64,000 nucleotides of DNA from the NCBI GenBank assembly GCA_017463155.1, contig JAFTPT010000020.1, positions 107,448 to 171,447 on the forward strand. Direction: 5' to 3'. The notes beneath the pieces are model-generated. The model was given only the letters and a program-made list of their open reading frames with translations, was not told where the DNA came from and searched no databases. How positions within the stretch are numbered: the stretch's first letter is position 1; each line of letters starts with the position of its first letter. The position numbers were made by a program, and so were the translations under genes. Positions 3,149 to 35,719 of the stretch are shown here, piece after piece. Source of the DNA: Blautia sp. (GTDB taxonomy: Bacteria > Bacillota > Clostridia > Lachnospirales > Lachnospiraceae).

Positions 3149-3220
3149 CACACCTGAAGGGAATCGAACCCCCGCACATGGTACCGGAAACCACTGCTCT
3201 ATCCACTGAGCTACAGGTGC
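3149..3220 (-). tRNA. tRNA-Arg, anticodon CCG
   Basis: A 72-nt cloverleaf can be drawn by hand: acceptor GCACCTG/CAGGTGT, D-arm GCTC...GAGC, anticodon arm GTGGT-TTCCGGT-ACCAT with CCG at positions 34-36, and T-arm with TTCGATT. It should read the CGG arginine codon. The discriminator is G and no CCA is encoded, so CCA would be added enzymatically. It is a single-gene unit with its own promoter and terminator. Confidence 0.95.
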
Positions 3221-13340: not shown

Positions 13341-13387
13341 GCACGATCAGTTTCTCGTGATCTGGGGGGCTCTCCCCTGTACCAATC

Positions 13388-13553
13388 CATCAGGCAGGTT
13401 TCCTGGCTCGCAGATCGATGCGGCATATGCGCCTTCCCGGTTTCCCAGTGACATTCATGCAAATGCTGCTCCCTGCATACAGTGACGAGTTCGCGCAGGC
13501 CTTACACCTGCTTCCCTATTATCCCGCGGAACGATTCCGCAGGCACCTGATGC
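13388..13553 (-). ncRNA. Cobalamin riboswitch (aptamer) upstream of the cbiK operon
   Basis: The minus strand carries the conserved cobalamin aptamer blocks: an AATAGGGAAGCAGGTG-like core, the CACTG box, and the 3' GCGAGCCAGGAAACCTGCC box (B12-box-like). A 7-bp closing helix pairs CATCAGG with CCTGATG at the two ends. With the terminator at 13290-13340 it should shut off the secreted chelatase operon when adenosylcobalamin or a related corrinoid is abundant. Confidence 0.92.
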
Positions 13554-13563
13554 ACAAGTATGA

Positions 13564-13632
13564 AATTAGGATGTTCACCCGCAGGGATCGTTCCGGATCC
13601 GGCCGGAAAAACACTGCGGAAACATCCTAATT
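13564..13632 (-). other. Stable 69-nt hairpin at the 5' end of the cbiK leader
   Basis: A perfect 12-bp stem (AATTAGGATGTT at 13564-13575 with AACATCCTAATT at 13621-13632) encloses further pairs (GCAG/CTGC, TTCCGG/CCGGAA). It begins at the predicted transcription start and precedes the riboswitch. There is no U-run, so a 5'-end stabiliser is more likely than a terminator, although it could also insulate from his-operon read-through. Confidence 0.5.
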
Positions 13633-24237: not shown

Positions 24238-25695
24238 TTATTCCGTGATGGATGCGAGAACTTCCTTCAGGTACTCCCATCCTTTTCGTGTGCTTTCGAT
24301 ATCCAGATGCTCCTCGGCTGTATGGATATCCAGGATATCAGGTCCCAAGGATACGCAGTCGAGATCCTCGATCCTTTCATAGAAGAGGCCGCATTCCAGG
24401 CCGGCATGGATCGCTTTGACCGTCATCTCCTGCCCGTACATGCGTCTGTAAACGTCGACCATCTTATCCCGGAGATAGGAATCTGCTTTGTATTCCCATG
24501 CCGGATAATCTCCGGAAACGACCGCTTCGCCGCCGAGGAACTCCGTCAGATAGCAGATCTTGTCCGACAGGGCGATCTTGGCAGAGCCTTTGGAGCTCCG
24601 CACGCTTGTGACGAGACTCAGTTCTTCCTCCGTAAGCTTCAGTACGCCGGGATTGGCGCTGGTCTCGACCAGGTCTTCGATCGTCCCGCTCATCTTCTGC
24701 ACACTCCACGGAATGTTCATGAGCAGGAAGATGATCTTTTGCTGACTGCCGGGCTGCAGTGCTTTTGCAGCTGCTTCCTTTTCTCCGAAGGAGGCCCGGA
24801 TATTGATCGCTCCGTCGGTTCCTTCGTATTCGCTGCGGATATCTTTTTCGAGTCCGGAGAGGATCTCCTGTGCCTTTTCTTTGGATTCTTCGGCAATGAT
24901 CATCTCCGCCGTGCAGGCGTTCGTGATCACGTTGTCTTTGCTGCCCCCTGAGAGGGCTGTCAAGGCAAACTCGCATTCCGTGCCAAGCGCATAGAGTACA
25001 CGTCCCATCAGGACATTCGCGTTGGCGCGGTTTTTGTCGATCTCGGAGCCGGAGTGGCCTCCGACCAGTCCGTCGATGGTCAGCGTCATCCGAATGCCTT
25101 CCGCCTCCGCCCATTTGACGCTCAGGCGGCTTTCCACGCACCGTCCTCCGGCGCAGGATACCCACAGGACACCGTCCTCCTCGGAATCGAGATTGATCAG
25201 GCGTTTTCCGTTCAGCTGTTTGCAGTCAAAGCCATCCGCGCCAAGCAGGCCGATCTCTTCATCCACGGTGATCAGTACCTCGAGCGCAGGAGCCTTGAGA
25301 TCCGGATCCTCCAGAAGTGCCAGGCCGAAGGCGACAGCGATGCCGTCATCTCCGCCCAGGGTCGTTCCGTTGGCCCAGACATAGCCGTCCTTTATGACCA
25401 GCTCCAGGGGATCCTTCGTGAAATCATGATCGATCTCCGGTCTTTTTTCGCAGACCATGTCCATATGGCCCTGCAGGATCACGGTCGGGACGTTCTCATA
25501 GCCCGGTGCCGCGGGTTTACGGATCAGCACGTTGTTCATCTCATCCTGAATATAGGACAGTCCTTTTTCCTTTGCAAAGGAAACCAGGTAATCGCTGATG
25601 GCCTTGGTGTTGCCCGAACCCCGCGGGATACGGCTGATCTCCTCAAAATAATAAAATACACGTTTTGGTTCAAGTTCTTCCAGAACTCTTGGCAT
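24238..25695 (-). CDS. pepD: Aminoacyl-histidine dipeptidase (PepD, M20 family)
   Basis: This 485-residue cytosolic dizinc dipeptidase has metal ligands in QGHMDMVCE, TLGGDDGIAVA (bridging Asp) and TVDEEIGLLGA (catalytic Glu pair), plus LVGGHSGSEID in the lid domain. It hydrolyses Xaa-His and other dipeptides. The ATG at 25695 has GAGGAG 8 nt upstream. Immediately upstream lies the 0.9-kb repeat nest, which may contain its promoter. Confidence 0.93.
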   Translation of the reverse strand: MPRVLEELEPKRVFYYFEEISRIPRGSGNTKAISDYLVSFAKEKGLSYIQDEMNNVLIRKPAAPGYENVPTVILQGHMDMVCEKRPEIDHDFTKDPLELVIKDGYVWANGTTLGGDDGIAVAFGLALLEDPDLKAPALEVLITVDEEIGLLGADGFDCKQLNGKRLINLDSEEDGVLWVSCAGGRCVESRLSVKWAEAEGIRMTLTIDGLVGGHSGSEIDKNRANANVLMGRVLYALGTECEFALTALSGGSKDNVITNACTAEMIIAEESKEKAQEILSGLEKDIRSEYEGTDGAINIRASFGEKEAAAKALQPGSQQKIIFLLMNIPWSVQKMSGTIEDLVETSANPGVLKLTEEELSLVTSVRSSKGSAKIALSDKICYLTEFLGGEAVVSGDYPAWEYKADSYLRDKMVDVYRRMYGQEMTVKAIHAGLECGLFYERIEDLDCVSLGPDILDIHTAEEHLDIESTRKGWEYLKEVLASITE

Positions 25696-25771
25696 GGTTT
25701 ATTCTCCTCTCGTTCGAGTGTGTGTTCTCTGTATGTATCGTTCATCCTGTGCAGCGTTGAAGATAATATAT

Positions 25772-26007
25772 GGCTCGCTTGGATGCGATCCGGGGAGGTG
25801 CAGGAATATGCGGCTGTACGGGACACGCTTGTCTCCTGGGAATCGCTGCGCCGCTTATGATCAGGCGCTCCGGCCAAGCCAGCTTCGCTAAACGGCGGCC
25901 TCCGCGCCTGAAGCTATGCTCGCGATTCCGGGCGTCGACTGCAAAGTGTCCCTTGACAGCCGTCATATTCTGCACTTCTCCCCGGTATCGCATCCTTCAC
26001 TCGCCGG
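25772..26007 (+). repeat. Left arm of an imperfect inverted repeat
   Basis: About 235 bp that reappear inverted at 26366-26633. By eye, identity is roughly three quarters with a few indels. The best block is CTTGTCTCCTGGGAATCGCT, extended by GCGCCGCTTA, near 25828-25857; others are AAGCTATGCTC and GTCGACTGC. Confidence 0.75.
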
Positions 26008-26033
26008 AAGCGTATTCCCAGTGCCACATAATA

Positions 26034-26168
26034 GACTTGGACGAAACATCTACAAGTGAACGCAGATCCACCTCTGACAGGCAGGGGCTTTCGCATGATT
26101 ACCCAAAACGCAGCACAGCGATTACTTGCTCGATATAGCCCTGGCCGACAGCTGATCTCCTCTCGGCG
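26034..26168 (+). repeat. Direct repeat unit 1
   Basis: About 135 bp with strongly conserved ends (GACTTGGACGAAAC at the start; TATAGCCCTGGCCGACAGCT and CTCTCGGCG at the end) and a divergent middle of about 30 bp. It is repeated in the same orientation at 26237-26369. No protein-coding signature was found in it. Confidence 0.75.
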
Positions 26169-26236
26169 CGCGAAGCGCTATCTTTACCGTAGCACAGCCC
26201 GTCTCTGTCTCCCGGCGAACTGATGAAAGTACGTGG

Positions 26237-26369
26237 GACTTGGACGAAACAGCTGCGGGTGAACGCAGATCTGTCTCTGACAGGCAAGGGCTTTCGAGGG
26301 CGGTCTAAGCGTTACACGGCATCAACTTGCTCGGTATAGCCCTGGCCGACAGCTGATCACCTCTCGGCG
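26237..26369 (+). repeat. Direct repeat unit 2
   Basis: Second copy of the 26034-26168 unit, with the same conserved ends and a different central block. It adjoins the right inverted arm. The 68-bp spacer before it (26169-26236) is unrelated except for a short CGGCGAA-like element. Confidence 0.75.
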
Positions 26370-26633
26370 AGTGCAGAATGCCGTATCGAGGAGATAATCA
26401 GTATATGCTGGCTGCGTAAGGCCGCTTCGCAGTCGACGTCGGGGATCGTGAGCATAGCTTTGCATGCGTAAGCCGCCTTGGAACTCAATGCTTTCCACAT
26501 TCAAAAACACAAGAACCTGTTCCAAGGCTTGGCTGGAGCATGTAATAATAAGCGGCGCAGCGATCCCAAGGAGACAAGCGTGGCCTGAACAGCCACATAT
26601 ACTGCTTTCTCCTCATCGGCATTCAAATGAGCC
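26366..26633 (-). repeat. Right arm of the imperfect inverted repeat
   Basis: This is the inverted partner of 25772-26007. It contains an extra insert of about 40 bp (near 26478-26522) whose ends GGAAC and GTTCC are themselves complementary. The whole 25.7-26.64 kb gap holds no credible gene. Confidence 0.75.
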
Positions 26634-26641
26634 CTTACCTC

Positions 26642-26688
26642 AAAAAAGAGACATCTACGTCAGCCGATGGACTGTCACAGATGTCTCT
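26642..26688 (-). terminator. Terminator of the coiled-coil gene
   Basis: AGAGACATCT (26647-26656) and AGATGTCTCT (26679-26688) form a 10-bp stem, and the minus-strand RNA continues with U6. Confidence 0.85.
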
Positions 26689-26709
26689 GATTCTGTTCAG
26701 GGATTTCGT

Positions 26710-27351
26710 TCATTCCTCATCCAGATCATCCAAAAGCGCTTCATCCTCCGGATCTAATTCTTCGGAAGCCGGCATGCTCTGATAAGAATTGGAAATAGCG
26801 GCTGCCTGTGCCGTCTGCGGCGCAAGCTCCTGCCGGTTCTGGTTGACCACATCCAGGCAGCTCTGCAGGGCATCGATAAAGCCTCTGTACTTGCCGCCGG
26901 CATCTTCCAGTGTCTCGCTCAGGATGTTCCCCATGTTGGCCATCATATCGTCCGTATAGGTGATCGCGCTCAGGCGGATGCCGTTCGCGTCCTGGGTAGC
27001 GGAATCAAGAATATCCTGTGCCTCACGGTTTGCCGCGTTGACGGTCTCATTGGCCTGGGCATAGGCTCTCTGCATGATCTCATGCTGCGTAACCAGTTCC
27101 TGTGCCTTCGCCTGTGCATCCGCGATGATGGCGTCCGCCTTCTGCTGGGCATCCTCAAGGATCGCGTCCTTGTTGCTGATGATCTTCTGGTAGCGCTTGA
27201 TCTCATCCGGTGTCTTGAGTCGAAGCTCCCGAAGCAGGTCGGAGATCTCCTCCTTGTCCACTACGATCTTGCGCGTAGAAAGAGGCTGGAATTTACAGCT
27301 CTCCACATACTCTTCGATCTCTTCAATGATCTGTTCGATTCTGCTGCTCAT
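26710..27351 (-). CDS. DivIVA-like coiled-coil protein
   Basis: This 213-residue protein is mostly helical. The central region (residues ~55-120) is rich in Ala/Gln heptads (AQQKADAIIADAQAKAQELV, ANETVNAANREAQDIL), like DivIVA or V-ATPase subunit H/E stalk proteins, which is how such Lachnospiraceae genes are often labelled. The C-terminus is acidic. A role in cell division or polar organisation is inferred only from this architecture. The start at 27351 has AAGGAG; it follows coaD by 25 nt. Confidence 0.65.
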   Translation of the reverse strand: MSSRIEQIIEEIEEYVESCKFQPLSTRKIVVDKEEISDLLRELRLKTPDEIKRYQKIISNKDAILEDAQQKADAIIADAQAKAQELVTQHEIMQRAYAQANETVNAANREAQDILDSATQDANGIRLSAITYTDDMMANMGNILSETLEDAGGKYRGFIDALQSCLDVVNQNRQELAPQTAQAAAISNSYQSMPASEELDPEDEALLDDLDEE

Positions 27352-35410: not shown

Positions 35411-35518
35411 GTATTTCTGTGGAAAAAGTGCGTACATAAATTAGAGAACAAGGCTCATAGATACCCCGATCCCTTTTTATGTATTCTCCTGGCAGTGACC
35501 CGCTGCCGGACACACTCC

Positions 35519-35706
35519 TCAGAATTCAGCAGGTCTCCTGGCTTATGCCTTTGTCTCATGACAAATGCTGTCTGCCTTCTCAGCAATCAAATGCCAATGG
35601 CTTTCAGACAACACACTCAGGCAAATTACAGTGGCGGCACCGCCCATGATTTTCACATGGTTCCCTTTTCACATTTCTGTCGAAGGCAGAAACGCACTGA
35701 ATCTGA
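35519..35706 (-). ncRNA. Cobalamin riboswitch (aptamer) of the ABC importer operon
   Basis: The minus strand shows AAAAGGGAACCATGTGAAAA, the core GGCGGTGCCGCCACTGTAA and the 3' box AAGCCAGGAGACCTGCT. The ends pair as TCAGATTCAG with CTGAATTCTGA. The following terminator implies repression of the importer when cobalamin is plentiful. This is the second such element in the window. Confidence 0.92.
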
Positions 35707-35719
35707 TTCAATTGTAAAA

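Follow-up and report, generated by a model that had tools for sequence, protein, structure and literature searches.

The locus between positions 25765 and 26641 of the window (the whole stretch of 64,000 nucleotides of Blautia sp. DNA that was analysed) is probably a decayed and rearranged composite copy of a gene-less, non-autonomous family of DNA transposable elements with long imperfect hairpin ends. Two hairpins of this family were distinguished, ARM and D. In the window copy two inverted D remnants are enclosed by two outward-facing ARMs, and thus both of its outer ends are ARM ends. The first-pass annotation had offered structured RNA or a decayed mobile element; dispersed copies, paired end repeats and target duplications in one relative (G062) speak for the mobile element, and RNA is not supported as a general reading. 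The further proposal of repeated insertion or inversion of one family fits the dispersed copies and the rearranged composite copies.

The layout of repeats given by the first-pass annotation was recovered. The inverted arms of about 240 bp (25772-26007 and the reverse complement of 26366-26633) were identical in 183 of 228 columns, with an alignment score of 100 against 31 for the best of 500 mononucleotide shuffles. Between them lie the two direct repeats (26034-26175 and 26237-26376), whose alignment had 109 identical columns out of 132 and scored 129, the best shuffle reaching 24; blocks of 60 bp (87%) and 52 bp (90%) were kept, with about 30 divergent bp intervening. Direct repeat 2 and the right arm overlap by 11 bp. 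In addition, either arm forms an imperfect hairpin of its own, about 240-270 bp long, with energies of about -133 and -121 kcal/mol when folded as RNA. The features of the locus are the following.

25765-26011, minus strand: left ARM hairpin, short-apex (L) type, supported by fold, alignment and a match at 25735-26011 (E 1.1e-68) to an ARM profile whose construction included this copy
25826-25839, minus strand: motif CCAGGAGACAAGCG of the left ARM, opposite GCAGTCGACG in the ARM alignment
25933-25942, minus strand: unpaired motif GCAGTCGACG of the left ARM, every position conserved in at least 20 of the 21 aligned copies
26034-26175, minus strand: direct repeat 1, inverted ARM-proximal linker and sequence like the 3' part of D, apical D core absent
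26176-26236, no strand: spacer separating the direct repeats
26237-26376, minus strand: direct repeat 2, of the same make-up, with a match to the D profile
26366-26641, plus strand: right ARM hairpin, long-apex (R) type, facing outward, supported by fold, alignment and a match at 26345-26649 (E 2.9e-86) to an ARM profile that likewise contains this copy
26429-26438, plus strand: unpaired motif GCAGTCGACG of the right ARM, from the ARM alignment
26568-26580, plus strand: motif AAGGAGACAAGCG of the right ARM, opposite GCAGTCGACG in the ARM alignment
25770-26138 and 26464-26757, plus strand, and 25742-25993, minus strand: open reading frames scanned against Pfam, without a match at E <= 0.001

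Both direct repeats contain, in inverted form, the linker that normally precedes ARM, and they carry just the 3' part of the D hairpin. Direct repeat 1 had no match of its own to the D profile at E <= 0.001. For direct repeat 2, positions 26214-26309 corresponded to positions 127-223 of a D profile made from six other copies (E 6.6e-13); a match for this repeat was also obtained as C19:133662-133749. No end repeat was detected in the window copy within 5 mismatches.

On one side of the locus an M20-peptidase-like gene (24238-25695, minus strand) starts, and on the other ends ORF 26710-27351 (minus strand), which belongs to no Pfam family. Upstream of the peptidase-like gene, about 70-76 bp separate its start from the outer end of the left ARM. 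The inverted repeat 26647-26688, which precedes a T run on the minus strand, lies just beyond the end of the right ARM and downstream of gene 26710-27351; it was not among the hits of the terminator scan. A terminator role for the locus was discarded, with one hit in 25600-26760 against 0.8 expected, and no sigma-70-like promoter hit was obtained in the locus. Elsewhere, the window contains two cobalamin riboswitches, at 13376-13565 and 35511-35716, both on the minus strand (Rfam RF00174, 108 and 100.5 bits), and a tRNA gene at 3149-3220, minus strand (Rfam RF00005, 59.5 bits).

The genome-wide search for copies that had been suggested returned 70 matching pieces by blastn in the own genome (G000, 3.07 Mb in 55 contigs), window region included and several of them at contig ends. 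Profile mapping assigned 19 further ARM copies, plus fragments, besides the two of the window, and 13 full and 5 partial copies of the D hairpin besides those of the window. The facing motifs of ARM, GCAGTCGACG and AGGAGACAAGCG, are identical at every position in 20 or 21 of the 21 copies. The fullest copy, C27:15806-16518, is 713 bp long and consists of a TTCTAATTTAAnGTATTA-like terminal repeat, D, linker, ARM and the inverted terminal repeat. Both ends are also present in copies of 315, 518 and 570 bp, in which D is missing wholly or partly; C43:43800-44114 is an ARM alone, forming a near-perfect palindrome. When up to 3 mismatches were allowed, the 18-mer of the terminal repeat matched 27 times and a reversed control 3 times. 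Outward-facing pairs of ARMs occur in the window and in C38, and one direct pair is located in C24.

A short palindrome, AGACAGAGAACCGTCCCC, was also repeated in the own genome, with some 35 matching pieces, often as inverted pairs; it is located in some linkers and within some D copies (C34, C41, C54, C4). A Y1-type transposase gene, C43:49851-50177 (L107:5352-5678; PF01797, 47.1 bits), lies near such palindromes, e.g. C43:50350-50379. This gene and the AGACAGAGAACCGTCCCC palindromes are possibly a RAYT/REP pair.

The distribution of the family was studied at several levels. Blastn of the window region against 40 relatives gave no match at E <= 0.001 among the best 11 candidates per genome. 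A covariance model of D, built from 12 own copies, matched in 16 of 64 genomes of the same genus group, own included, with at least 176 matches in total, at least 47 of them in G048, where every candidate scored was a match; since the best 47 candidates per genome were scored, these counts are lower bounds. A model of the D core, from 41 hand-chosen copies of 12 genomes, was present in 3 of 391 genomes of the class (own, G443 and G191) when the best 12 candidates per genome were considered; all three belong to one family, and the core thereby extends to two other genera beyond the genus group. ARM was detected in the own genome only, both by exact motif pattern (1 of 64 genomes of the genus group) and by the class-wide model (1 of 391, best 6 candidates per genome). 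Its tie to the cross-species family therefore rests on its adjacency to D within shared ends. The outer stems of D were, by eye, unrelated in sequence between species, with complementarity kept. Placement of 60 copies of relatives, with crude ORF calls, was between ORFs for 51 and inside a predicted ORF for 2, the other 7 being at region edges and left unjudged. Among the 114 loci listed by a contig scan with a loose pattern, none matched either profile, ARM or D (best E 0.37).

Evidence of mobility was clearest in G062, whose elements consist entirely of a hairpin of 209 bp (208 bp in one copy). Exactly identical 5-bp flanks were found at the same boundary in 7 of 12 complete copies. Within their 9-nt flanks 10 of the 12 shared at least 5 bp, which was the case for 6 of 132 pairs of swapped flanks. 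On account of these exact 5-bp target duplications the D hairpins of G062 are considered mobile DNA. G060 has a distinct 18-bp end repeat, with 35 matches against none for the control, in copies of 265-266 bp and in deletion derivatives of 49 and 62 bp. No target duplication was found in the own and G060 copies, nor, with the anchors used, in those of G013 and G048. At two G048 loci, L414 and L430, the outer end GGGATTCCCCGGGAAG...GAACGG occurs, by eye, in tandem at a spacing of about 37 bp, perhaps as traces of repeated end use.

Neighbouring D cores mostly converge. In the fetched regions around D matches, 19 converging, 2 direct and no diverging pairs were observed within 1.5 kb; in 44 G048 loci, some of them overlapping, there were 20 converging pairs and 1 direct pair within 3 kb. 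Both searches united, with 12 G048 pairs common to them, gave 27 converging, 3 direct and 0 diverging neighbours. Of 20 wider G048 regions, a pair was present in 12 and a single core in 8. These pairs and their cargo were observed in the D copies of relatives and form a context for the window copy.

The interiors of the G048 pairs are dissimilar to each other beyond the hairpin flanks. Of the 20 pairs, 7 contained ORFs with a length of 45 aa or more (8 ORFs). Five of these, from 4 pairs, were compared with Pfam: NUDIX, DUF6442 and HTH_3 were above the curated cut-off, a fourth ORF was SnoaL_2-like but below it (24.2 versus 27 bits) and the fifth had no match. A Pfam-supported gene is thus present in 3 of 20 pairs, one of these being below the cut-off. 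The G+C content of the cargo was lower than that of its surroundings in all 12 pairs measured of the 20 (mean 37.8% versus 47.9%), and was 38.6, 39.0 and 32.0% against 46.8, 46.8 and 49.1% in the three pairs with Pfam-supported genes; much of the other G048 cargo may be non-coding sequence, in which low G+C is common. One extra converging pair of D cores occurs in another genus (G191), with ORFs listed in its 1.2-kb interior. This pair (L359, 232-1598) includes a possible frame for a peptide of about 33 residues starting near 1110, which may resemble type I toxin peptides.

Covariance modelling of the copies, as had been advised, revealed strong covariation in the D core. Two-sided changes affected 16 of 20 pairs and 95.1% of 820 cells were paired, in a structure derived from the same alignment; the covariation score was 0.433, versus 0.150 when shuffled and up to 0.116 when slid. 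Several positions outside the predicted pairs were invariant in the 41 copies of 12 genomes. Such covariation and conserved internal loops would also be expected if the family were a multi-copy structured non-coding RNA, with hairpins working as RNA and dispersed by duplication, an explanation that we consider unlikely. Stems were predicted without G-U pairs in seven sets and the G.T and A.C deviations were then tallied, excluding three ARM rows (L110 and L121, cut by contig ends, and L115). One-sided deviations amounted to 83 G.T and 101 A.C cells (66 and 70 pairs), and their direction varied between genomes: 28:13 in ARM R, 7:2 in ARM L, 8:6 in own D, 2:21 in G013, 12:15 in G048, 8:9 in G060 and 18:35 in G062. 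The own ARM stems combined lean to G.T (35 versus 15), and among RNAalifold pairs, which admit G-U, the ratio was 40:3 in ARM, as RNA would predict; however, it was 11:22 in the D core by the same procedure, and a cruder count that ignores predicted pairs gave 25:29 for own ARM, 39:47 for relatives and 0:5 for own D. A small and weak control of 13 tRNAs had 74 Watson-Crick, 6 G.T, 1 A.C and 10 other combinations. In G013 (L284-L303) each of the 10 copies flanked by co-directional genes sits on the strand opposite to them, and its excess of A.C over G.T (21:2) corresponds to wobble pairs on the gene strand, as if a gene-strand transcript folded. The leanings of own ARM and G013, in opposite directions, mean that RNA may apply to those two sets. 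In the absence of a consistent excess of G-U over A-C, RNA is unsupported as a general reading, and the lack of a strand favoured across all sets fits a fold at the DNA level. Against RNA also stand the outer stems, unrelated between species by eye, the lack of a sigma-70-like promoter hit at the window locus and the search of the elements against Rfam, which matched no family. An HDV-like ribozyme or a group I/II intron was set aside by eye for the D core.

The same stems bear on a further explanation, that these are ordinary repeated intergenic palindromes, with no recognised function, maintained by template switching. Changes confined to single copies, summed over the seven sets, comprised 77 two-sided with pairing kept, 8 two-sided and unpaired, and 165 one-sided, and 15.6 two-sided changes would be expected if the sides were independent. 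This excess suits selection on the hairpin or arm-to-arm copying, and such copying alone could account for strong pairing in which G-U pairs are few; in yeast, template switching that homogenises the arms of inverted repeats has been published (PMC8604942). The invariant unpaired core positions, however, would be erased by arm copying, and neither the target duplications of G062 nor the lack of any diverging pair agrees with it, so that template switching on its own appears very improbable. An origin as giant REP/REPIN-like elements, whose single-stranded hairpins are moved by a Y1 (RAYT/IS200-type) transposase, is also improbable. It would account for the converging pairs and for the target duplication missing in four of the five genomes tested, and inverted doublets, a variable spacer and compensatory stems are features of REPINs (PMC3116915). 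The 5-bp target duplications of G062 oppose it. Moreover, among the 64 draft genomes Y1_Tnp was detected in 10 of 16 bearing D versus 30 of 48 lacking it, with no match in the copy-rich G013 and G062, and RVT_1 in 8 of 16 versus 28 of 48. Y1_Tnp was not associated with D over these genomes. Neither enzyme explains the family, and both a Y1 transposase and a reverse transcriptase were rejected as its mover.

The preferred reading, a non-autonomous family of DNA transposable elements, was also examined by searching for a moving enzyme and for known elements. By eye, in these draft assemblies, no transposase was recognised between two ends among the ORFs near lone own end repeats in four regions, nor between paired ends in 20 G060 regions. 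An IS256-type-transposase-like fragment was seen by eye in G060 (L380:2-529), about 2.5 kb from a 49-bp mini element. The first-pass annotation would have been refuted by copies aligning to a known transposon; in blastn against plasmids and/or phages, with the fullest own copy and two elements of relatives as queries, no match was obtained, and four patterns gave 0 hits in viral contigs. A literature search, judged by titles and the starts of abstracts, retrieved no publication describing this family.

According to this reading, a transposase acting in trans would recognise the ends and move the units. The palindromic stems would be held complementary at the DNA level, by selection on the folded hairpin, by one arm serving as template for the other, or by both, and the asymmetric unpaired core motifs would be under selection, the folded core being read by some factor, probably as folded DNA. 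Two converging D-type hairpins in relatives would bound units able to carry cargo. The window copy, with the 3' part of D only and its core missing, is presumably immobile.

The family fits as a variant of MITEs, for which a review describes end repeats, direct repeats and stem-loop transcripts (PMC10969869). As in MITEs, the elements are gene-less, dispersed and mostly intergenic, with terminal inverted repeats, a stable stem-loop and, in one relative, target duplication. No internal transposase was found (three window ORFs; interiors of paired ends by eye), and terminal inverted repeats are present in own (27 versus 3) and G060 (35 versus 0) copies but, within 5 mismatches, not in the window copy. 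Unlike in MITEs, the asymmetric hairpin cores outlast the turnover of stems and end repeats, and no parent insertion sequence was found. With REPINs, in which 93% of 430 doublets are reported to be inverted and compensatory stem changes to be common (PMC3116915), the family shares inverted doublets, a spacer of variable sequence and compensatory stems, although single cores also occur. It differs from them in its unit hairpin of about 200 bp, versus 20-40 bp for REP sequences (PMC3733652), in core spacings of up to 1.2 kb, in the genes carried by some units and in the target duplications of G062. Nor was the dependence on Y1 (RAYT) seen over the 64 draft genomes.

Mobile insertion cassettes (MICs) are transposase-less units with inverted ends and passenger genes. 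They are the nearest cargo-bearing kind, and passenger genes lie between inverted ends in some G048 pairs; the ends of the present family, however, are long structured hairpins, and no matching insertion sequence was found in the plasmid and phage comparisons. Integron attC sites are folded imperfect palindromes with drifting stems and constant unpaired bases, associated with small accessory genes, features that may have their like in this family. Unlike attC cassettes, its units have two converging hairpins and its copies are dispersed in the genomes examined. Integron attC was rejected as an identity; the own end repeat resembles RYYYAAC/GTTRRRY in part of the copies.

The family hints at a hairpin-ended gene-shuttling system, with converging pairs in relatives that sometimes enclose small genes. 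We tentatively propose, as a possibility more doubtful than probable, a gene-cassette system in which two converging imperfect hairpins of about 200 bp surround units of about 0.5-1.5 kb with one or two small AT-rich genes. Its ends would be recognised as folded DNA through their mismatched cores while the stems turn over freely; it would be confined, as far as sampling goes, to one bacterial family, and its mover would probably be neither a RAYT nor a reverse transcriptase. That such a system stands behind the mobile family of the window is plausible but unproved. If true, it would warn that covariation by itself is no proof of RNA, and would offer a test system for folded DNA ends that retain one core while the whole stem is replaced. 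Palindromic repeats of these bacteria that resemble RNA genes would in that case mark the ends of transferable cassettes, with the shape of the DNA as what is recognised.
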